A stretch of DNA of 36,616 nucleotides, from NCBI GenBank assembly GCA_902629465.1, contig CACOQX010000009.1:1-36616 (forward strand), written 5' to 3'. The notes under the pieces were generated by a model. It searched no databases and was not told where the DNA came from. It was given only the letters and a program-made list of their open reading frames with translations. Made by a program: the position numbers and the translations under genes. The DNA comes from an uncultured SAR86 cluster bacterium. GTDB taxonomy: Bacteria > Pseudomonadota > Gammaproteobacteria > Magnimaribacterales > AG-339-G14. The stretch's first letter is position 1. Each line of letters starts with the position of its first letter. Positions 1,553-13,008 of this stretch are shown in pieces.

Positions 1553-1771
1553 TTACTTTTCTCTAAAAGTTATTCTGCCTTTTGATAGATCATATGGCGT
1601 CATTTCTACCTTAACTTTATCGCCGGTTAAAATACGAATGTAATTTTTACGCATCTTACCTGAAATGTGAGCTGTGATTACATGATCATTTTCAAGTTTT
1701 ACTTTGAAAGTAGTATTAGGCATAGTATCTATTACCTCACCAGACATTTCAATTAAGTCTTCTTTTGCCAT
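1553..1771 (-). CDS. infA: Translation initiation factor IF-1
   Basis: 72 aa [70 protein letters not shown], canonical IF-1; convergent with clpA as in many gammaproteobacteria. Confidence 0.97.
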
Positions 1772-1782
1772 AAAATGTAATT

Positions 1783-1896
1783 ATGCCTGAGGAAAAAAAA
1801 GATAAAAAATTTAATTTAATTGGACTTCTCGGGATCATACTTATTGTCAACATATTTTTGGCAATAGCAGCGTACTGGATAGATTCAATCTACTAA
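1783..1896 (+). CDS. Putative 37-aa single-TM microprotein
   Basis: ATG at 1783: MPEEKKDKKFNLIGLLGIILIVNIFLAIAAYWIDSIY stop; charged N-terminus then one hydrophobic helix; divergent from infA. Below the ORF-track length cut-off. Confidence 0.45.
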   Translation: MPEEKKDKKFNLIGLLGIILIVNIFLAIAAYWIDSIY

Positions 1897-1974
1897 GAAT
1901 TTATCTAATTTATATTGTTTCAATTCTATTTTAAGAGTATAAATATCCAGAAGAGTTTTTAAACGGAGAGATCA

Positions 1975-2118
1975 ATGCATTTCAAATATCTTTTAATTTC
2001 AACTGTCTTTTTTTTAATATCGTGTGGTGGTGGCGGAGATACGCCAGTTCCACCAGCTCCCTTACCTTTAGGAGAAAACAATGGACAAATTACAGATCAG
2101 TTCCAAATAGTTGAATAA
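1975..2118 (+). CDS. Tiny putative lipoprotein (47 aa)
   Basis: MHFKYLLISTVFFLISCGGGGDTPVPPAPLPLGENNGQITDQFQIVE; lipobox LISC followed by Gly run; AGAG just upstream; immediately upstream of the large secreted ORF at 2134. Below ORF-track cut-off. Confidence 0.7.
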   Translation: MHFKYLLISTVFFLISCGGGGDTPVPPAPLPLGENNGQITDQFQIVE

Positions 2119-2133
2119 AATTAAGGAAATATT

Positions 2134-5100
2134 ATGAAAAAATTATTTTTAGTTGGTTTAGTTTTAGGAAGTCTGTCTATTCAGGCACAAACAACGGATT
2201 ATGACAGCGCAAAAACGGATACTTGGGTTGCAGGAAACCCGGCTAATGAAGCTGTTTCTTTGGTAAACCAAATAATCTGTTTTCTGAAAAATGCTACTGG
2301 TCCAAATGTTACAGACTTCCTTGGTAAAAAGTTTAAATCTGTTGTTTATATGGATGAGTGTGAGCAAAGTAGTGGAGGCGGTTCTCTTGATGCAAGTAGA
2401 GGTACGGGGGGATCATCTCAAAATGCTGCTCAAGGAGATTCCTCTAACAACAATAATTTAGCAGAGCAAAAGAAAGACTCTATGATTGTTATTAATGATG
2501 TTGCTTCGAGAGCATCGAATTCAGATCCAATTGTAAGTAAAGCTTGGGTATACATGCCAGATACTGATGGCGGTGGCGGATTTGATAGCTTTGATAGAGA
2601 TATTTATTTAGAAAATACAATTACATCTGGAGTTTCTAACGACAATCCTTATGGCGCTTTTACAATGAGCTATACAATGACTAATACAGCTGATGCTTGG
2701 GGCGGCTCTTTACCGGCCGGTTCAACATTAGGAGAAGGTTATCTAAATATTTCAGGAACAAAAGCTGAATTCATTGAAAGATCTTTCATGTCTAGTGAAA
2801 TGCAAGCCTACGCAGATTTCAGTCAAACTGAGGATGGCGATGTAAAAGGAGTTATTGTTAAGCCAGGTTCAATCGGAGGAACAGGTGGGGGACCTGCTGG
2901 TCCGGGAATGTTTAAGGCATATTATGCTTTTAACGTCGATAAGAGCGAAAACCTTTATTGTGAAAAACTGTTATCTGCCGAGAAGATTTCTTTTGGAGAA
3001 CCAGGAAGCATCATTGCTGCTGCTAATCAGGACGTCATAATTACAGGACCAACAGCGGCAATTAAACCAACAGTTGGGGATGCCTTAACTGATGCTGAAA
3101 TAACTGCAAACGGTTTATCAAAAGCTCCTAAATGTTTATCTACTGCTGCGAGTACAAAAAAGAAATCAGTGTGGCAATATGGAGTTTATACACAGGCTGG
3201 AGCTGAGTATACGGGTGCAACCGATACTAAAAGGGCACCTTTTCCAATTTATGACGTTGCTGGCAGTAAAGAATTAAGAGGTTATGCATCTCACTGGGGA
3301 GTGCATGTAGATTACGAGGTCTCAGACGCGGAAGCTCTCGCTGCTGATTGGAAAAATGAACAAGATGCAAGCGATACAGATATTTACAAACTTTTTCAAA
3401 GCTATGGAAAATTAGAAAAATATACTAACTCATTTCTCTCACTAAATGAGATACATAAAGTTAGAGTAAGACTTTACATTGGTTATGCAAATTCAAATGC
3501 AGAAAGAACTAAGTTTGCAAACTTAGGTTTTGTAGATACCGATTGGGATGGAGCAGATAATACTTTTGGAAATGCTGATGATGATTATGAGGAATATGAG
3601 GGATACTGGGATAAAAATCTAGCGAAGTTTTGTTTTGATACCAAAATAAGTTGGCGAAGAAACGGAGATAACATTAAGACTTTAACAGGTACCTGTTCTG
3701 CTACATCTACTAATTCAACGAATGCTTCTGGTGCGGTGGTTGTATTTTCGGGAGCAGAATGGTTCACCCAAATGGGAGAATGGCAAAGAATTTACCTTTG
3801 GTCTCCAGAATCAGGGACAGATTATGCTATTAGAAAAAATACTACGGATAATCCAACAAGCAAAACTGCTGCAAATGGTATAAAGGTTCAAAGCAGAGAA
3901 TGGGTAGATATTGAGACTGTTTCAGATGCAAATTTCATCTGTCTGAAAAATTGTCCTACAGCCGCAGGAGTCAGTGCTACTGCCAAAGCGGCTTTGGATG
4001 CTATCGTTGCTCAATCAGGAACTGGTCCTCATGTTTCTCCTTATGATGCAACCATTGGCGCTCATTTCAAACAAACCGATTATGAAGCGCCTGCTACGGA
4101 CGGCCAAATCAATGATTTTTGGGGTAATGGTGCTCATTATACTTTTCAAGTAGGAGATTATTGGAATGAAGCTTCTGTCTATATCAATGATGCTAGTAAC
4201 GCAGATGATGTTGCACTTTACAGGATAGAAAACGGAAAATTTTATCAAGGCACAACTGCAAGTGCTCCTAACGAAGTAACCTGGTCTAATGCTGTCTTAA
4301 CCACAGAAGTAAATGAAGTTCTAGCAGTTACAGCAGGTGACGGTAGTCGTCCCTATGCAGGCATGAGACTGGATACTTTATTATCCAATCATTCAATGAA
4401 AATGGCCGATTGGTCTAATAATCATCAATATCGAACAAGAAATATGGGCTGGGCTATTGAATCAGGCTTTTTGGTAGAAAATACTGCCGGTAATAGAACT
4501 AAACTTGAGTGTGACAAGACCGGATCACCAGCTGCATATCATAAATATGGAAACAACAAAGATCACCCAAGAATTGTCACAACTAAGGGAGCTGATGCAA
4601 CTGCTTTAAGACTTTGCTACAACAAAATTAGAGAAGGTTTTGATGGAACTTATTATCGTTTCTATCTCAAGCCTAGAGCACAGTGGACAATTAAAACTGG
4701 TGGAAATGTGGTGAATTTCTTTAAACCGGAAACTATGTATTTTGATACTTCACAAATAAATACCTCAGCTTTGGAACAAGCATCTGGAATACAAGATCGT
4801 GATAAAAACAAGATCATACGATTAGAGTTTTCAGGAGCTAGACAGCTTTGGGGTCTACCTGGTGGAGTATGGGATTTTTGTACAGATCAAGCTTTAGGAG
4901 ATCAAGTCTACAACTGGAATGGTGAATGCTATCGATACATTGATAGATTTGTAATCCCAAACGGACTAAATATCAATACCCTTCCTGATGGTAGTGGTAC
5001 GTCTTACAAAGTTAAAGCTTTAGGGATTGATGAGTTCTTAACACCTACCTCTAATCCTGCAAACATTGGAACTATGTTTGATGGTCTAACTAAAAGCCTT

Positions 5101-5241
5101 TTACCTTCTGAGACTAATCTTAAGAATATGGGGCCTGATGGAGGTTCAAATTCTATAGGAACAAAACCTACAGATGCTCAGCTTGAAGGCTCAGGAAAAG
5201 CTCAAGTTATTCATGGTAAGAAAGTATCTACAGGTAGCTAA
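2134..5241 (+). CDS. Large secreted protein of unknown function (1035 aa)
   Basis: N-terminal signal peptide MKKLFLVGLVLGSLSIQAQ; Gly/Asn/Ser-rich linker; no family recognised; shares motifs with the 9699-11366 product. Confidence 0.85.
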   Translation: MKKLFLVGLVLGSLSIQAQTTDYDSAKTDTWVAGNPANEAVSLVNQIICFLKNATGPNVTDFLGKKFKSVVYMDECEQSSGGGSLDASRGTGGSSQNAAQGDSSNNNNLAEQKKDSMIVINDVASRASNSDPIVSKAWVYMPDTDGGGGFDSFDRDIYLENTITSGVSNDNPYGAFTMSYTMTNTADAWGGSLPAGSTLGEGYLNISGTKAEFIERSFMSSEMQAYADFSQTEDGDVKGVIVKPGSIGGTGGGPAGPGMFKAYYAFNVDKSENLYCEKLLSAEKISFGEPGSIIAAANQDVIITGPTAAIKPTVGDALTDAEITANGLSKAPKCLSTAASTKKKSVWQYGVYTQAGAEYTGATDTKRAPFPIYDVAGSKELRGYASHWGVHVDYEVSDAEALAADWKNEQDASDTDIYKLFQSYGKLEKYTNSFLSLNEIHKVRVRLYIGYANSNAERTKFANLGFVDTDWDGADNTFGNADDDYEEYEGYWDKNLAKFCFDTKISWRRNGDNIKTLTGTCSATSTNSTNASGAVVVFSGAEWFTQMGEWQRIYLWSPESGTDYAIRKNTTDNPTSKTAANGIKVQSREWVDIETVSDANFICLKNCPTAAGVSATAKAALDAIVAQSGTGPHVSPYDATIGAHFKQTDYEAPATDGQINDFWGNGAHYTFQVGDYWNEASVYINDASNADDVALYRIENGKFYQGTTASAPNEVTWSNAVLTTEVNEVLAVTAGDGSRPYAGMRLDTLLSNHSMKMADWSNNHQYRTRNMGWAIESGFLVENTAGNRTKLECDKTGSPAAYHKYGNNKDHPRIVTTKGADATALRLCYNKIREGFDGTYYRFYLKPRAQWTIKTGGNVVNFFKPETMYFDTSQINTSALEQASGIQDRDKNKIIRLEFSGARQLWGLPGGVWDFCTDQALGDQVYNWNGECYRYIDRFVIPNGLNINTLPDGSGTSYKVKALGIDEFLTPTSNPANIGTMFDGLTKSLLPSETNLKNMGPDGGSNSIGTKPTDAQLEGSGKAQVIHGKKVSTGS

Positions 5242-5281
5242 ATAATAAAAAGTCTCTCATGAGAGATTTTTAATTAGACAA

Positions 5282-5310
5282 GAAAAGCCTTCCACAGAAG
5301 GCTTTTCTTT
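5282..5310 (+). terminator. Rho-independent terminator candidate
   Basis: GAAAAGCCTT-ccacag-AAGGCTTTTC stem followed by T-rich tract; preceded by a second small hairpin AGTCTCTCATGAGAGATTTTT at about 5250-5271. Confidence 0.75.
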
Positions 5311-5481
5311 TATTGTCATACAAAGTACCACTATAAGACTAACGATAATCTATACCCGAATAGTATTAAAAATGTATCTACATATAAGTTGAATAACTTA
5401 AAAGCTTGTGTCGTAGTTGGTCTTTAGAATAAATTAGATACTGCTTCGGCTGGATATCAATTTTATTCTGCAAATTGGTCT

Positions 5482-6339
5482 TTATAAGGATTCTAAAAAA
5501 TCTTTTAAAGCCAAACCAATTTCATTAGGAGAATGCTCTTGAATGAAATGATTACCTTTGACAGTTACTTCTTTTAAGTTTTTCCACGACCTAACAAATT
5601 CTCTTTGGTCACCAACAAGAATACTTCCTGGATCTGCATTGATAAATAATTTAGGTATATCGGAATTTTGATGAAATTTTCCATTTTTAGTTACTTCACT
5701 TACGACTGCTTCAGGTTCTCCCTCAATAGGTATTTGTCTTGGCCAAGTTAGAGTAGGGCGTCTATCTTCTCCTGAATTTTTAAAAGGACGAATGTATTCT
5801 GTATTTTCTTCATCTGTAAATCCATTAGCAGAATCATTTAATAAAATTCTTTCAACAAAAACATTTTTTTCTAGAACGATTTCTTCGCCGGCATCAGATC
5901 GCATTAATTGAAATATATTTCTAGCATTTTCTGGCCACTGGTTCCAAGTTAATGGCATTACAATAGCCTCCATAAAAGTTATAGATTTTATTCTGTCTGG
6001 ATTCTCTCTTGCATACTGAAAACCCATAGCAGAACCCCAATCATGAATAACTAAGTTAATTTCATTGCCAAGTTCTAGAGAATCTAAAAGAGCAGCTAAA
6101 TATTTATATTGTCCATGATACTGATAATCGGGGTTATCTACTCCATCTAGTTTTTCAGAATCTCCCATTCCAATAAGGTCTGGAACTACAATTCTCCCCA
6201 GACCCTTAACTGAGGGAGTGATGTTTCGCCATAAAAAAGAAGAGGCCGGATTACCATGTAAAAAGACGATGGATTGACCTTCTCCAGAATCTAAAAAAGC
6301 CATTTGCTTTCCGAGTATTTCCTTATAATTTTTACTCAT
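5482..6339 (-). CDS. Haloalkane dehalogenase, HLD-II (LinB/DhaA-like) subfamily
   Basis: HGNPASSFLWRNI (halide-binding Asn), HDWGSAMGFQYA (nucleophile Asp-Trp), ITFMEAIVMPLTW (catalytic Glu), RRPTLTWPRQIPIEGEP, NHFIQEHSPNEIG (catalytic His). Confidence 0.92.
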   Translation of the reverse strand: MSKNYKEILGKQMAFLDSGEGQSIVFLHGNPASSFLWRNITPSVKGLGRIVVPDLIGMGDSEKLDGVDNPDYQYHGQYKYLAALLDSLELGNEINLVIHDWGSAMGFQYARENPDRIKSITFMEAIVMPLTWNQWPENARNIFQLMRSDAGEEIVLEKNVFVERILLNDSANGFTDEENTEYIRPFKNSGEDRRPTLTWPRQIPIEGEPEAVVSEVTKNGKFHQNSDIPKLFINADPGSILVGDQREFVRSWKNLKEVTVKGNHFIQEHSPNEIGLALKDFLESL

Positions 6340-6470
6340 CTTTCAACTCCTCACTATAAAAAAAATATATATTATCACAATCGTAATTTGGTCCTATTGC
6401 CGCGAGTTTAAATAAAGCGCTAAAACGGAAATATGTTTCCTGGATTTAATGTTTGATATAAGGTGGTCTT

Positions 6471-8165
6471 ATGAACAATAAATATTTTCTTATCTTTTTG
6501 GTAACTTTTCTTATAACTTCATGCGGTGGTGGTGGTGGTTCAGCCCCTCCAGGACAACCGCCTGAACCTACCATTAGTAATTTGAATATTTCAAATTCTT
6601 GTAAAAAGGCCTGGTATACATCTACTTTTCCAGATCCTACTTCCACCAATACAGTTTTTAATAATTATTCTTTTTTTTGGCAACAAACTTCGTTTGAAGC
6701 AATGCCAAACTGTCGTAATGTCTATGAGGCTACCGATGCTATCACTGATACAGGAGGCGTAGATTGGGAAGATTACGTGAAAGAAATTGTAGATTATTCA
6801 AAATATACTCTCGGTCAAATAGTACCTGTTAATATTTTTATTCTAGGAGCCAACCCTACGAGCTCTGTAAATACTGCTGAAAAAGCTTCTTACAATACTG
6901 ACTTTCAAACTGTTCAAGCTAGAGTTGGTTCAAATTATGCTTCCGACCTCGCTAATGGAGATATTTTTCCTATAGAATCGGCTGGAGGTGGTTATTCTTT
7001 TGAGGCTGCACCGAATGGCGCTGATATACAATTACCTCAGGCGCTAGTTTGGGGTCAAAGTGGATTCTCCAATGATAATGAGAAAATACAAGCATCTTTT
7101 AAGATAATTGCTCATGAGTACTTTCATGTCTACCAAAATTCCATAAAGTTTTACAACGAAGCTAGTAAAACTATTTCTATTCCCAAAACTTGGCAATCAA
7201 ATCCTAATATAGTCAACAATCCATCCGGCGATCCTGCTTATTTTCCATGGTGGATTGAAGAGGGTGGTGCAGACTTTGGTGCTATAGTTTTGTCAGCTAA
7301 ATATGCTAATACCAAATCAGGTATAAACGTAAGTACTGTTATAAATCCTGTCCAACAATTTGAAGACCACTTTAAAAAAGCTCATGAACTTTTTGCAGCT
7401 GATGCAAATTTAAAACTCAGTAGCTACAATTTACCACCATCTTCTCCGCCTGATTATGCATATCAAGTTGGAACCGCAGCGTTCTTGTACGCTTGGTATA
7501 AAGACGAAAGAAACTTTAATGCCGCTATGACAAAATATTATACCGACTGGCAAGAAGCTGAATTAAATAGATCGGGTAAAGGTTTTGAAGATGCTTTTGA
7601 AGATGCATTTTGGAAAAACAATACCGAATATTACACTCTTGATGAATTTGATACAGAATTTCGAACATGGATAAGAGCTGGAGATGCAAACAACCGTTGG
7701 GCCATTGTTGCTAAAACAGCAAATCAAATCATTCATGCTAACATAGAGCCTTCTACACCAAATACTCCAAATTCAACCTGGAAAACCATTGCGGTGTCAG
7801 CTGCAGCTAAAGTCATTGATAATGGCGGAGTTAATAAATATTTTATTGACGGTATCCAACAAAAAACACTTGTTGTCAAAGCAGGTAGTAATTATAAATT
7901 TTCTCATGGTTCTACTCATCCAATAAGATTTTCTACCACTCCAGATGGTACTCATGGAGGAGGAGATGCTTACACTCTAGGAGTAACTGTAAATTCGGGT
8001 ACTGAGGTATCTATTACTGTACCAAATTCGTCAAGTACTAAAACCTTATACTATTACTGTGCGAACCATCCAGGTATGGGCGGGAAAATAAAAATAGTAG
8101 AACAAACCTCAAGTGGTTCTAATCCAGTAGGAGGTAGCCCAGGCAACCCAAACCCAGGCTACTAA
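6471..8165 (+). CDS. Lipoprotein with HEXXH metallopeptidase-like region and C-terminal cupredoxin-like domain
   Basis: Lipobox LITSCGGGGGS; AHEYFHVYQNS (HEXXH) followed by WWIEEGGADFGA; C-terminal STHPIRF...YYYCANHPGMGGKIKIVE (His...Cys-x2-His-x2-Met type-1 Cu pattern). Confidence 0.8.
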   Translation: MNNKYFLIFLVTFLITSCGGGGGSAPPGQPPEPTISNLNISNSCKKAWYTSTFPDPTSTNTVFNNYSFFWQQTSFEAMPNCRNVYEATDAITDTGGVDWEDYVKEIVDYSKYTLGQIVPVNIFILGANPTSSVNTAEKASYNTDFQTVQARVGSNYASDLANGDIFPIESAGGGYSFEAAPNGADIQLPQALVWGQSGFSNDNEKIQASFKIIAHEYFHVYQNSIKFYNEASKTISIPKTWQSNPNIVNNPSGDPAYFPWWIEEGGADFGAIVLSAKYANTKSGINVSTVINPVQQFEDHFKKAHELFAADANLKLSSYNLPPSSPPDYAYQVGTAAFLYAWYKDERNFNAAMTKYYTDWQEAELNRSGKGFEDAFEDAFWKNNTEYYTLDEFDTEFRTWIRAGDANNRWAIVAKTANQIIHANIEPSTPNTPNSTWKTIAVSAAAKVIDNGGVNKYFIDGIQQKTLVVKAGSNYKFSHGSTHPIRFSTTPDGTHGGGDAYTLGVTVNSGTEVSITVPNSSSTKTLYYYCANHPGMGGKIKIVEQTSSGSNPVGGSPGNPNPGY

Positions 8166-8174
8166 TACTAAGTT

Positions 8175-8203
8175 ATAATTCTTCTCTAGCGGAGAAGAAT
8201 TAT
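8175..8203 (+). promoter_or_regulatory. Perfect 12-bp stem-loop enclosing SD and start region of downstream ORF
   Basis: ATAATTCTTCTC-tagcg-GAGAAGAATTAT; the 3' arm contains the GGAG(AAG) SD and runs into the ATG at 8202. Confidence 0.65.
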
Positions 8204-8768
8204 GCTTAATCCTGAAGATAGAAGTAAGGCTTTCAATTTTGCCCTTAAAGCTCAAGAAGTTTTTGGATTTTTTATTGGATTGACTGTTTTATGGTCAATC
8301 TATGCACTAACTTTCACACAAATTGAAATATTATTTATTTCAAAAATTTTGCTAACTTTAATTTGTATAGGTTTCGGATCAATTACACCTCTAATTGACT
8401 TTAATGAATCTCATGCAACTAATCCACTTTGGACAGGACATGCTCGTTTTCATTTAGTTTGGCAAGTTAATGCAATAATAATTACTGCAATATTATCTTT
8501 AGTAATTTTGTGGAGTTATTATTCTTTTGAAAATCACTTGATTGTAATCTTATTAAACTACTTATGGATTTTTTCATTTTATGCAACATTCATGGGGTTA
8601 AAATTATTTGATGGTGAATTAAATGATATCAATGGTGTTCCTCCTGTTTTTCTTAATTTACTAAGTAAAAAATTCGAAGTAGATAGAAATGTATATGCTA
8701 TTTCTGGGATTTTAGTTGTAAATACTTATGCATTTATCTTATTTTTACTTTCTTTATATTTAACATAA
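8202..8768 (+). CDS. Multi-pass membrane protein of unknown function
   Basis: 188 aa with several hydrophobic helices; GGAG SD at 8191. Confidence 0.7.
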   Translation: MLNPEDRSKAFNFALKAQEVFGFFIGLTVLWSIYALTFTQIEILFISKILLTLICIGFGSITPLIDFNESHATNPLWTGHARFHLVWQVNAIIITAILSLVILWSYYSFENHLIVILLNYLWIFSFYATFMGLKLFDGELNDINGVPPVFLNLLSKKFEVDRNVYAISGILVVNTYAFILFLLSLYLT

Positions 8769-8836
8769 TATATATTATACGAATATACATATAGCCTATT
8801 CATTGTGCTTTAGGGCCTTCCCTATCTATAAAATAA

Positions 8837-9424
8837 TTAAAAATAAGCCTTGTCTACAAGCTTATCAATTGCAATAAGATCCTTTTGACACTTATCTAAG
8901 AATATATGTAATTTATTATCATCAAAGTTTTCAAATGATGCTGTATCAAACCTTAGTCTTAAAGTTCTAATCTTAAGGATTATCTTTTCATTTTTAGGCA
9001 GGCTGTCTAAACAAAGTCTTATTACTTAAAGGCATCTTGTTATTGATCTAGGAAAACTATCATCTTGTAAAAGAAAGTTTATTACTTCTTCTCTATCAAC
9101 CTCTCCTTTCGAAACTTTTCTAAATGCGTCTTGAGCAGATAATATTGATAGCAAACTTATCCACTCTATCGTAGAAAAATCATAGGTCTTTTTATCGCAT
9201 TTCGTAATACATAAACAATCTATGATTCGCGATATCATATCGATTCTTTCTAAAAATCTACCTAATCTTATAAATTCAAATTCATATCCTCTTGAAAGAT
9301 TGTCATTTATCGAACTAAAAAATTCTTGGGTAAGGTCCACTATATTTGTTATGAAAGGCAATCTTTTTCTTTTGTGAATCTTTAAAAAAGATTCATTAAA
9401 GATATGATCGTGAAGATGATTCAA
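8837..9424 (-). pseudogene. Alpha-E domain protein (COG2307/DUF403) remnant: N-terminally truncated and interrupted by an in-frame TAA at 9026-9028
   Basis: EFEFIRLGRFLERIDMISRIID...WISLLSILSAQDAFRKVSKGEVDREEVINFLLQDDSFPRSITRCL*VIRLCLDSLPKNEKIILKIRTLRLRFDTASFENFDDNKLHIFLDKCQKDLIAIDKLVDKAYF*; similarity continues past the stop in the same frame. Confidence 0.75.
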
Positions 9425-9664
9425 ACTGATACATCCATAGGAGATGCAGCAAGAGTCGCCCTCCTGTCTTTAGATTCTACAATGAAATCAGACTTAACAT
9501 TTGGTCCTCCAATAGATTTAATTGTCTTTAAAAAAGATCAAATAAACTTAGATTTTCAAGAACAACTGAAATTAGATTCACCATTTTTTAAAAAACTGTC
9601 CGATATTTGGGCTGAGCAAATAGACAAAGGTGTCAAAAAACTTCCAAAATTCAATTGGGAGTAG
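9401..9664 (+). pseudogene. Anbu-type (proteasome-like, COG3484) peptidase, C-terminal remnant
   Basis: MIQTDTSIGDAARVALLSLDSTMKSDLTFGPPIDLIVFKKDQ...LDSPFFKKLSDIWAEQIDKGVKKLP resembles the Anbu C-terminus; catalytic N-terminal region absent, in-frame TAA at 9383-9385. Confidence 0.7.
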
Positions 9665-9698
9665 TATTAGGAAGCCTCTGAGAAAAAACTTATTTTCA

Positions 9699-11366
9699 TC
9701 ACTTTAAATAGTTTGAATAAATAGCTTTTTCCAAGTATTTATAGTTTGTCCAATCTGGTTGAAATACTGTCGTATCGTTGTCTTCTGTATCTTCAATAAG
9801 ATCGTGGTCAACATCTAAATTTTTTAGAGGATCTAAGGGAAAGGCGTCCAAGTAATTAGGTATACCATCGCTATCCTCATCTCCATCTTTAGAATAATAA
9901 GCTCCTTGACTTTGACTAAATAAATCAGTGGTTGTACTAAGTTTATTTACAAGAACTGCACCTGTTCTTGGAGTAACTACTACTGGATAATTGAAAAAAG
10001 TATGATCTGGCGTATCCATTGAAGCTTGAATAGTCAAAGAATTGCAATCAGCATCACCTTGTGGTCTTGCTGGATAAACCTTGCTTACTCCTAACTGCCT
10101 TACATAATATTCTTCTCCGGTTTGGTCAATATTTAAAACCGTGCCTTCTGGAACATCAAATAAAGGAAAGTTTTGGTAGTCATGACCATTTATTCTAACA
10201 ATTGTAAAAACATCGCCTAGGTTAGTTCCAGGACAAATATTATCTCCATAAAAACTTCCATCTAACAATTTCTTACACTGCAATCCAGTACCAACCCAAC
10301 TACCATTGAATATCCTTACTTTGCCATCAGAATAAGTTACATTGGATGTAGTAAAATCATAATCGGCAGTTAGAGCTTGAGACGGATCAGAAGTTGAGAA
10401 AGTTATCCTATTTCCGTTACTATCATATACGCCATATCTTTTTGAAGGAACGTATTCCCAAGAACCTGTTCTACTTACACAAAGTTCAGTTCCTGATGAT
10501 GAAGATTCAATACTTGACGTGTCAGCATTATAAAAAGAATTTTTTTGACCAGTATACCCATAAGTTATTTCGTATTTAACTACTTTTTCATTGTAAGCAA
10601 AATTAGTGGTTGAAATACTATATGGATTTCCATCTGGATAATTTTTTGTGTAACCACTTGGAAAATATTGGACTAATCCAGCAGCTAAAAAAGGACTCAT
10701 CTGATTTGTATTGAAGATAAGTTCGGTTACTGTGCCAGTACCGCCTGAATTTTTATTGTGTAATATTTTCGTACCATAGAAATAAACTTCTTGGCCCAAT
10801 GGAATTAAATTATTTAGAATAATGCCATCTATATAAACCGTAGCTTTAAATTGCACTTGATTATTATCAAGAACTGATGATTCATAGGTGGCATTGTAAA
10901 TAGGCGTATTGAGTGTTGGAGCAAGCATTGAAACATAATTGTAATCTAGAGTAAGTACGCCATAAGGATTAGCTGCTGAAGTTTCTTCTTCTAATATTAA
11001 TTTAATTCTAGGATCAGCTACGTTATTTGGCATTGACATTTCCATAACCAAATTATCAGAAGAGGTTGGTTGTTTTGATACTACAAGCCAGGGAAGGTTA
11101 ACTTCGCCGTTCTGACAAGCATTATTATCTAAAATAGCTTCATAACCTATTCCATCTCCTAAATTACTAAAATTTTTATACTCAGTACTTTTAAATAAAC
11201 ACAAATAGTCATTTACACGTCCAAAGCCTACATCCAATTGATACTGATGAATGTAAAATAATTTTCCATTTCTTTTGATAGGGCTAGCTTCAGAGAATGA
11301 ACTTAAAGCAGGAAAGGAGAATAAATAATTTGTAAATAATAAGCTGATAAATAAGCAAATACGCAT
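9699..11366 (-). CDS. Secreted protein of unknown function with C-terminal Asp-rich (thrombospondin type 3-like) segment
   Basis: Signal peptide MRICLFISLLFTNYLFSFPALS; C-terminal DGDEDSDGIPNYLDAFPLDPLKNLDVDHDLIEDTEDNDTT. Confidence 0.82.
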   Translation of the reverse strand: MRICLFISLLFTNYLFSFPALSSFSEASPIKRNGKLFYIHQYQLDVGFGRVNDYLCLFKSTEYKNFSNLGDGIGYEAILDNNACQNGEVNLPWLVVSKQPTSSDNLVMEMSMPNNVADPRIKLILEEETSAANPYGVLTLDYNYVSMLAPTLNTPIYNATYESSVLDNNQVQFKATVYIDGIILNNLIPLGQEVYFYGTKILHNKNSGGTGTVTELIFNTNQMSPFLAAGLVQYFPSGYTKNYPDGNPYSISTTNFAYNEKVVKYEITYGYTGQKNSFYNADTSSIESSSSGTELCVSRTGSWEYVPSKRYGVYDSNGNRITFSTSDPSQALTADYDFTTSNVTYSDGKVRIFNGSWVGTGLQCKKLLDGSFYGDNICPGTNLGDVFTIVRINGHDYQNFPLFDVPEGTVLNIDQTGEEYYVRQLGVSKVYPARPQGDADCNSLTIQASMDTPDHTFFNYPVVVTPRTGAVLVNKLSTTTDLFSQSQGAYYSKDGDEDSDGIPNYLDAFPLDPLKNLDVDHDLIEDTEDNDTTVFQPDWTNYKYLEKAIYSNYLK

Positions 11367-11498
11367 TTAATTTAGAAAAGTTATATCATCAGGTACATCT
11401 TTAAAATTTATGGTTTCAACTTCTGGAGTTGGTTGACTTATGCTGCCTCCTCCGCAAGAAATTAGTAAAAATGCCATCAGAATATATAAAAATTTCAC
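11367..11498 (-). CDS. Tiny putative lipoprotein (43 aa, GTG start)
   Basis: (V/M)KFLYILMAFLLISCGGGSISQPTPEVETINFKDVPDDITFLN stop; lipobox LISC + Gly run; stop codon directly abuts the ATG of the 9699-11366 gene. Below ORF-track cut-off. Confidence 0.7.
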   Translation of the reverse strand: MKFLYILMAFLLISCGGGSISQPTPEVETINFKDVPDDITFLN

Positions 11499-11575: not shown

Positions 11576-12307
11576 CTACCTTTCAGCAGGATAAGCTTTA
11601 ACTAATTGAGCAAGAGTTGAATTTACAAATTTTCTTATGTTTCCAACCTTTCTATTGAAAGACTTGAATTCATTTGAAGCGTAAACTTCATCAAGAGCAT
11701 CATTTAATTCTTGAATAGAATTAGATCCGTTATACAACATATGAGATACATATTTATTGCCATAAACTACTCTATTTATTCCATATGACCCAAAAGAATC
11801 TGCAGTGGAATTTGTGAGTTGTTTGTACGCTTCAAGATAAGATGCTTGACTTCCAGTTTTAACCTTAACTTCAATGTTAGAAAAAACAGTATTCAATCGC
11901 CAATCACCAGCCTCTAAAACTAGCTCGGTAACGTAATTATAATAATCTTCACTAACTGAAGTTTTATCAAAGGCTACATTCATTTCTGAAGATGCTGCAC
12001 AAGAAGCAAAGATATTTTGCCCTTTTTGCATCATGTCATAATTTTCATATGCAACTAAAATAACATGTGAATGCCCTCCTCCCATACGAGAATAAAGACC
12101 AACATTTGCTCCAGATTCTTTTCTCCATTTAGCAGCACATGATGAAGAATCAAAGGTTTCAATAGCAGCTACAAACCCTGCCGGATTAGTTACATTGAAA
12201 AAATGGAATTCATAAACTCCACTCCCAGGTCTCAATGTATTCTCATTTGAAAATAGATTAAAAGACAATAAAGCGGTGAGAAATAAATAAATGATTTTAT
12301 TTTTCAT
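11576..12307 (-). CDS. Secreted protein, possible tandem dimeric alpha/beta-barrel fold
   Basis: Signal peptide MKNKIIYLFLTALLSFNLFS; two repeats of beta-strand/helix layout with Gly-Gly-His (RMGGGHSHVILVAYENYD). Confidence 0.7.
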   Translation of the reverse strand: MKNKIIYLFLTALLSFNLFSNENTLRPGSGVYEFHFFNVTNPAGFVAAIETFDSSSCAAKWRKESGANVGLYSRMGGGHSHVILVAYENYDMMQKGQNIFASCAASSEMNVAFDKTSVSEDYYNYVTELVLEAGDWRLNTVFSNIEVKVKTGSQASYLEAYKQLTNSTADSFGSYGINRVVYGNKYVSHMLYNGSNSIQELNDALDEVYASNEFKSFNRKVGNIRKFVNSTLAQLVKAYPAER

Positions 12308-12315
12308 GACTACCT

Positions 12316-13008
12316 CTAATTTCTTGTATAAATGGTCTCACAATACTCAAAAGTTTCTTCAACTTCTTCATCTATGTATTGCTGAGCATCATCCCAAGTA
12401 GCAGCCCAACCTGCTCCTCTAAAATACTCATCTATAATTTTTCCAGTTTCTGCTGCTGTTTTGGTAATGGTTCTTAAATGAAACATTCCGGTTTCAGCAA
12501 ATCCACCGCCAAGTTGAGCAAATACACCAATCATCATTTTGTGACCTGCAGCATCCAGTTCTTTTTGAAGTTTCGTCATTGAATTTGAAAAAGCCTGCCA
12601 ATCGTTTAGCTTTACTCTCCAAAGCCTATGGTATCCATCTCTAGCTTCAAAATCCTTAAGCGGTTTGAAAGCTGAAGAATATTTGATGGTTCTTAATTGT
12701 TTGAGGTCAAAATTAGCACTTGCTGGATCATATAACTCAATAAATCCTATAGCTTTTTCAACACTCGTAAAAGCATTGTAGATGAACATTTGACCTTGAT
12801 AGCTTTCTCCTGTTCTGGTTTTGCAATAACCAGCTTGTTCAGATCCGAAATCATCAAAATCTACATTTTCTTTTAAAAAATTAACATATTTATCAATATC
12901 TTTTGCTTGAACCATAAGAGTCGTAAACGCTCCTTCTGGAACCGCGCTAAGATTTATTGAAAATATTGAGCTTAAAAGAAAAATTAAAGATATTTTTATA
13001 TTTTTCAT
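12316..13008 (-). CDS. Secreted protein, possible tandem dimeric alpha/beta-barrel fold, neighbour of 11576-12307
   Basis: Signal peptide MKNIKISLIFLLSSIFSINLSA; FTTLMVQAKDIDKYVNFLKENV and VFAQLGGGFAETGMFHLRTIT; 8-nt gap to next gene. Confidence 0.7.
   Translation of the reverse strand: MKNIKISLIFLLSSIFSINLSAVPEGAFTTLMVQAKDIDKYVNFLKENVDFDDFGSEQAGYCKTRTGESYQGQMFIYNAFTSVEKAIGFIELYDPASANFDLKQLRTIKYSSAFKPLKDFEARDGYHRLWRVKLNDWQAFSNSMTKLQKELDAAGHKMMIGVFAQLGGGFAETGMFHLRTITKTAAETGKIIDEYFRGAGWAATWDDAQQYIDEEVEETFEYCETIYTRN

Follow-up and report, generated by a model that had tools for sequence, protein, structure and literature searches.

The tiny lipoprotein genes that precede two large exported-protein genes of an uncultured SAR86 bacterium each probably encode a detached N-terminus, which anchors its partner protein to the outer membrane non-covalently through a conserved C-terminal tail, since in other bacteria a single uninterrupted protein comprises the same anchor, linker, tail and partner. 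Both pairs lie in opposite orientations in the window (the whole 36,616-nucleotide stretch of DNA analysed; Table 1), and their large proteins belong to a new, unnamed, widespread protein family with an unusual split architecture.

Table 1. Features of the two lipoprotein-partner pairs in the window.
Feature	Coordinates	Strand	Remarks
Tiny lipoprotein 1, 47 aa	1975..2118	+	Signal peptide, lipobox LISC at Cys17, Gly/Pro linker, C-terminal tail
Lipoprotein 1 conserved C-terminal tail, GQITDQFQIVE	2083..2115	+	Found with tail profile; selection measured on other family pairs
Partner A, 1035 aa, exported	2134..5241	+	Sec signal peptide, conserved Cys, beta-rich model
Tiny lipoprotein 2, 43 aa, GTG start	11367..11498	-	Lipobox LISC at Cys15
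Lipoprotein 2 conserved C-terminal tail, INFKDVPDDITFLN	11370..11411	-	Kept across 10 B-family loci
Partner B, 555 aa, exported	9699..11366	-	Short remote homologue of A (by profile comparison); Asp-rich, TSP3-like C-terminus

Gene pairs and protein family

The preliminary description, made from the letters alone, had claimed that a tiny lipoprotein gene stands before a large signal-peptide protein gene twice in this window, and all four ORFs are present, separated by 15 nt in pair A and 0 nt in pair B. Both lipoproteins (MHFKYLLISTVFFLISCGGGGDTPVPPAPLPLGENNGQITDQFQIVE for lipoprotein 1, in which the residue at +2 is Gly, and MKFLYILMAFLLISCGGGSISQPTPEVETINFKDVPDDITFLN, translated from GTG, for lipoprotein 2) have a lipobox, and a Sec-type signal peptide is present on partner A and on partner B separately. 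The C-terminus of partner B scored 11.4 bits with the TSP_3 model (PF02412), below the cut-off of 25. In the source genome itself (0.94 Mb, 60% complete), a search with a lipobox DNA pattern that was too narrow gave no match.

By profile comparison, partners A and B are judged to be remote homologues. Their pairwise BLASTP similarity is marginal (E 0.004) and too weak to decide the matter as sole proof, but hhalign clearly relates profiles of 20 A proteins and 10 B proteins (E 4.8e-11), also after removal of the signal peptides (E 5e-8, probability 94.8; five column-shuffled controls, 0.2-0.4). The ordered motifs that had been noticed in both large proteins are signatures of the family (NPxGxF, VWxYGLY...GxR and FxIxxG...YxVKAL), retained even in its most distant members; alignments and hhalign place conserved cysteines and the NPxG, YGxY and FxIPxG motifs in all branches of the A/B family. 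Partner B is a short form: little remains of the stretch that separates YGxY from FxIPxG, and the C-terminus is rich in Asp. Among 40 searched genomes of the same taxonomic family, 26 have relatives of A and 11 have relatives of B, the weakest of the latter being marginal. The preliminary description did not recognise the family, and Pfam, NCBIfam and PDB sequence searches with A, B and their relatives found no known family; when the models were compared by Foldseek with the PDB and with viral models, no hit fell below E 0.05, named plasmids gave no match, and literature searches found no description.

Within SAR86, 47 of 49 family ORFs (in 30 neighbourhoods) have an upstream lipoprotein of 39-180 aa on the same strand, 0-25 nt away, and a hydrophobic segment with a Cys is present in each of the 47. 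Pairing with an upstream CG[GSAK] lipoprotein comes to 47/48 when a 134-aa fragment is set aside, and a single strict rule applied to both groups pairs 37 of 48 family ORFs vs none of 261 unrelated ORFs of at least 250 aa from the same loci; the pairing is not due to chance. The repeated bicistronic unit suspected from two examples is thus borne out by 47 of 48 SAR86-family homologues. The partners do have profile similarity, and homologues lacking the lipoprotein, named beforehand as an outcome that would speak against the unit, are confined to a minority, comprising one SAR86 clade and the one-chain forms described below, which need no separate lipoprotein. The unpaired exceptions are the 134-aa fragment (L044:694-1098), which belongs to a second family member beside an intact one and is apparently a decaying paralogue, and L068:6450-9653, whose relatives L101 and L104 are likewise without a lipoprotein; these three form one small SAR86 clade, and no tailed lipoprotein was found elsewhere in the locus analysed either.

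The relative reading frame of lipoprotein and partner, the gap between them and the stop codon of the lipoprotein vary among loci. Read-through of the stop codon is therefore excluded: the stop of the zero-gap B pairs differs among orthologues (TAA, TGA or TAG), and in many A pairs the two genes lie in different frames.

At the site between infA and an alpha/beta-hydrolase gene (window 1553-6339), genomes of the genus hold one to three lipoprotein-partner cassettes, a tandem copy-number variation at a fixed position. Tandem duplication of whole pairs would account for two further features: paralogues within a genome resemble each other only remotely, and every tail keeps to one class of partner. 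Next to partner B, two adjacent secreted-protein genes (window 11576-13008, minus strand; 243 and 230 aa) without a Pfam family are conserved in several SAR86 genomes, and a 132-aa ORF (window 9026-9664) looks decayed or truncated in comparison with versions of about 303 aa in L046, L055, L056 and L060.

The conserved tail of the lipoprotein

The lipoproteins consist, in order, of the lipobox, a Gly/Ser-rich linker and a conserved C-terminal tail, the last of which had not been foreseen in the preliminary description. The residue at +2 is Gly in 47/47 and never Asp, which is compatible with outer-membrane sorting under the established Lol rule for this position. The mature lipoprotein has 23-71 residues in 41 of the 47 and 143-162 in the other six, which carry an extra domain related to the C-terminus of another lipoprotein of the window (6471-8165, plus strand). 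The latter, a large CGGGGG lipoprotein, has a metalloprotease-like motif (HEYFH...E) and, at its C-terminus, a weakly cupredoxin-like domain, a relative of which is inserted in the anchor lipoproteins of 161-180 aa in L042, L043, L051, L053, L057 and L058.

The consensus of the tail is about x[VLI]Pxx[IV]x[VI][VI]E. In A pairs the shared form is [YG]x[LVI]Pxx[IV]x[VI][VI]E plus 0-6 further residues, and the tails of B pairs (YKNVPDDITFLN) match the same pattern, VPxxIx[FV][LI], by eye. The lipoprotein is under purifying selection, the tail most strongly: over 14 pairs, the tail has a pN/pS of 0.037/0.297, as against 0.046/0.316 in the partner and 0.107/0.346 in the lipoprotein as a whole. Distances between tails rise with those between partners (r 0.91, compared with only 0.43 for the lipoprotein signal peptide; 0/2000 permutations, also when shuffling was confined to paralogues of one genome), a correlation that linked inheritance alone could produce. 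When the ends of 3952 ORFs in the family loci were scored with a tail profile, 37 of the 39 that reached at least 9 came from family-linked lipoproteins, and no unlinked lipobox ORF in these loci had the tail; the sensitivity of the profile is biased because it was trained on these same tails, and the absence elsewhere is unbiased.

Structure prediction of the pairs, proposed at the outset and run with AlphaFold2 on read-through fusions in which the stop was read as Gly, produced beta-rich partner models (pLDDT 54 for B and 70 for A), the first domain of A consisting of one helix and about ten strands, but from shallow alignments of 10 and 32 rows it did not place the tail at a docking site (block-mean pLDDT about 23-39).

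One-chain and long split relatives

With a broader profile, the family was found in 24 of 369 sampled Gammaproteobacteria genomes, 22 of them besides SAR86, as well as in five more Pseudomonadota genomes of one family, one other Pseudomonadota genome (L123) and a groundwater record whose title reads Deltaproteobacteria and which a tree tool assigns to the Myxococcota (L106). Most of these members are a single lipoprotein, an architecture that had not been foreseen either, in which lipobox, Gly/Ser/Thr linker, motif, spacer and domain follow one another, thus joining anchor, tail and partner (for example ...STLSACGGGGGGGGGESGAVTGLVMPSNISVIANQNGSGGTALALYNDAGTDYSTDEARVNIYDASMESLQTVNMILC in L130). 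A profile built solely from split tails ranked the motif first, second or third over the full length of most one-chain members. A regular expression, written with the one-chain sequences already in view and searched within 100 aa before the domain, matched in 15 of 21 one-chain proteins, at a distance of 13-47 aa from the domain, vs 3 matches in the 18,724 other residues of the same proteins. Two distant one-chain groups, the f47 genomes and L106, have a degenerate motif with only a weak match.

Split partners also occur outside SAR86 (L122, L125, L129, L133 and L138), where they have a signal peptide instead of a lipobox and are preceded in 5/5 cases by a tailed tiny lipoprotein, at a larger distance in L133. 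SAR92 HTCC2207, K189A, a Pseudomonadales MAG and further families of SAR86 have a long split form: the partner has 1250-1900 aa, and the gene 1-13 nt upstream encodes a protein of 525-994 aa that ends in the same tail (GYKVPTSIDVIETKE, GFVLPKEIKVIEAK, GYSLPETISVLETVE) and in several cases contains bacterial Ig or cadherin-like domains. All complete lipoproteins of this form have a lipobox except that of HTCC2207, for which the start of the ORF is not resolved. A quick tree of 71 domains with several long branches requires at least three changes between split and one-chain forms, and its well-supported branches force two changes for the one-chain label; being unrooted, it does not separate gain of the split from loss.

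Proposed anchoring of the partner

After export by Sec, the lipoprotein would receive its lipid at the cysteine of LISC and, having Gly and not Asp at +2, be delivered to the outer membrane, where its flexible linker would present a short beta-strand-like C-terminal tail, xVPxxIxVIE. The partner, presumably co-translated, would be exported separately by its own signal peptide and fold as a disulfide-rich beta protein; the conserved cysteines agree with an exported partner that is putatively disulfide-bonded. Docking of the tail onto this partner, probably as its missing N-terminal strand, would hold it at the membrane, and in the one-chain relatives the same tail links anchor and domain covalently. 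The comparisons establish the gene anatomy, the linkage, the conservation of the tail and the one-chain equivalents; docking and the outer-membrane location are inferred, and the addition of a strand is suggested by the alternating hydrophobic pattern of the tail. The motif is terminal on a separate anchor or internal in one chain and occurs on no unlinked lipoprotein in the family loci, so that it is most simply read as a structural part of the partner domain that enables the anchor to work in trans.

Alternatively, the tail might direct the export or sorting of the lipoprotein, for instance its delivery to the surface, and the large gene might simply share its transcript. The C-terminal position of the tail in split forms, a frequent place for sorting signals, would suit this, but the tail is internal in one-chain forms, its sequence class tracks the partner, and its absence from unlinked lipobox ORFs in the loci also makes such a signal quite improbable. 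The preliminary description had suggested that the lipoprotein may anchor or chaperone its partner. Anchoring has gained strong comparative support from the conserved tail and the natural one-chain forms, and chaperoning none: a dedicated chaperone or assembly pilot for folding or outer-membrane crossing, rather than a lasting anchor, is unlikely even though many outer-membrane pilots are small lipoproteins and each partner gene has one tiny cognate lipoprotein, because the usual mature length of 23-71 residues, mostly Gly/Ser linker, is too small for a folded pilot and fusion into one chain better suits a permanent part.

That the tiny ORFs are functionless remnants of a broken one-chain gene is hardly credible; relatives do have the one-chain architecture that such remnants presuppose, but purifying selection on the lipoprotein, strongest on the tail, contradicts decay, as do retention in 47/48 copies despite varying frame and gap and the partner's own signal peptide. 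The partners without a lipoprotein in one SAR86 clade count against the detached anchor, as do the unplaced tail in the AlphaFold2 models and the degenerate motif of the f47 genomes and L106; it is nevertheless the best explanation. More tentatively, the lipoprotein may act in trans as a detachable lipid anchor whose tail strand completes and holds the partner, with separate genes permitting exchange of the anchor (bare linker, cupredoxin-like or cadherin-like modules) and regulation or release of the surface protein, the split having evolved or reversed at least twice. Going by the cadherin-like modules and by how strongly the paralogues diverge, one may guess that the partner serves in surface adhesion or ligand capture.

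The detached anchor would be a first testable function for lipoprotein genes of 40-60 aa, which lie under common ORF cut-offs and are now tied to a family of large exported proteins that spans Gammaproteobacteria, other Pseudomonadota and one Myxococcota genome. If the tail binds in trans, the result would be non-covalent lipid anchoring of a protein, with the one-chain forms as natural controls. Because SAR86, an abundant group of the surface ocean, is uncultured, its surface proteins are difficult to study by other means.

Known systems resemble this arrangement in part. Two-partner secretion (type Vb) also involves two adjacent genes and a large, exported, beta-rich protein, but here the partner gene encodes a tiny lipoprotein instead of a POTRA/beta-barrel transporter; no TPS domain was matched by Pfam in A, B or their relatives, and no adjoining transporter of the TpsB/FhaC type was seen on reading the ORFs of the window, part of which were covered by HMM scans. 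Donor-strand complementation of chaperone-usher pili resembles the proposal in that a beta domain is completed by a short strand supplied by a different chain, but here no chaperone or usher was seen and the proposed strand would come from a lipid-anchored peptide. LptE with LptD and the secretin pilotins likewise pair a dedicated lipoprotein with a single large envelope protein; in those systems the lipoprotein is a folded domain, whereas this one consists of a linker and a tail. Outer-membrane lipoproteins of the Sec/Lol pathway have a signal peptide, lipobox, Gly at +2 and flexible linker, exactly as do the one-chain relatives, but in the split form the anchor with its tail and the functional domain are two proteins encoded by adjacent genes.
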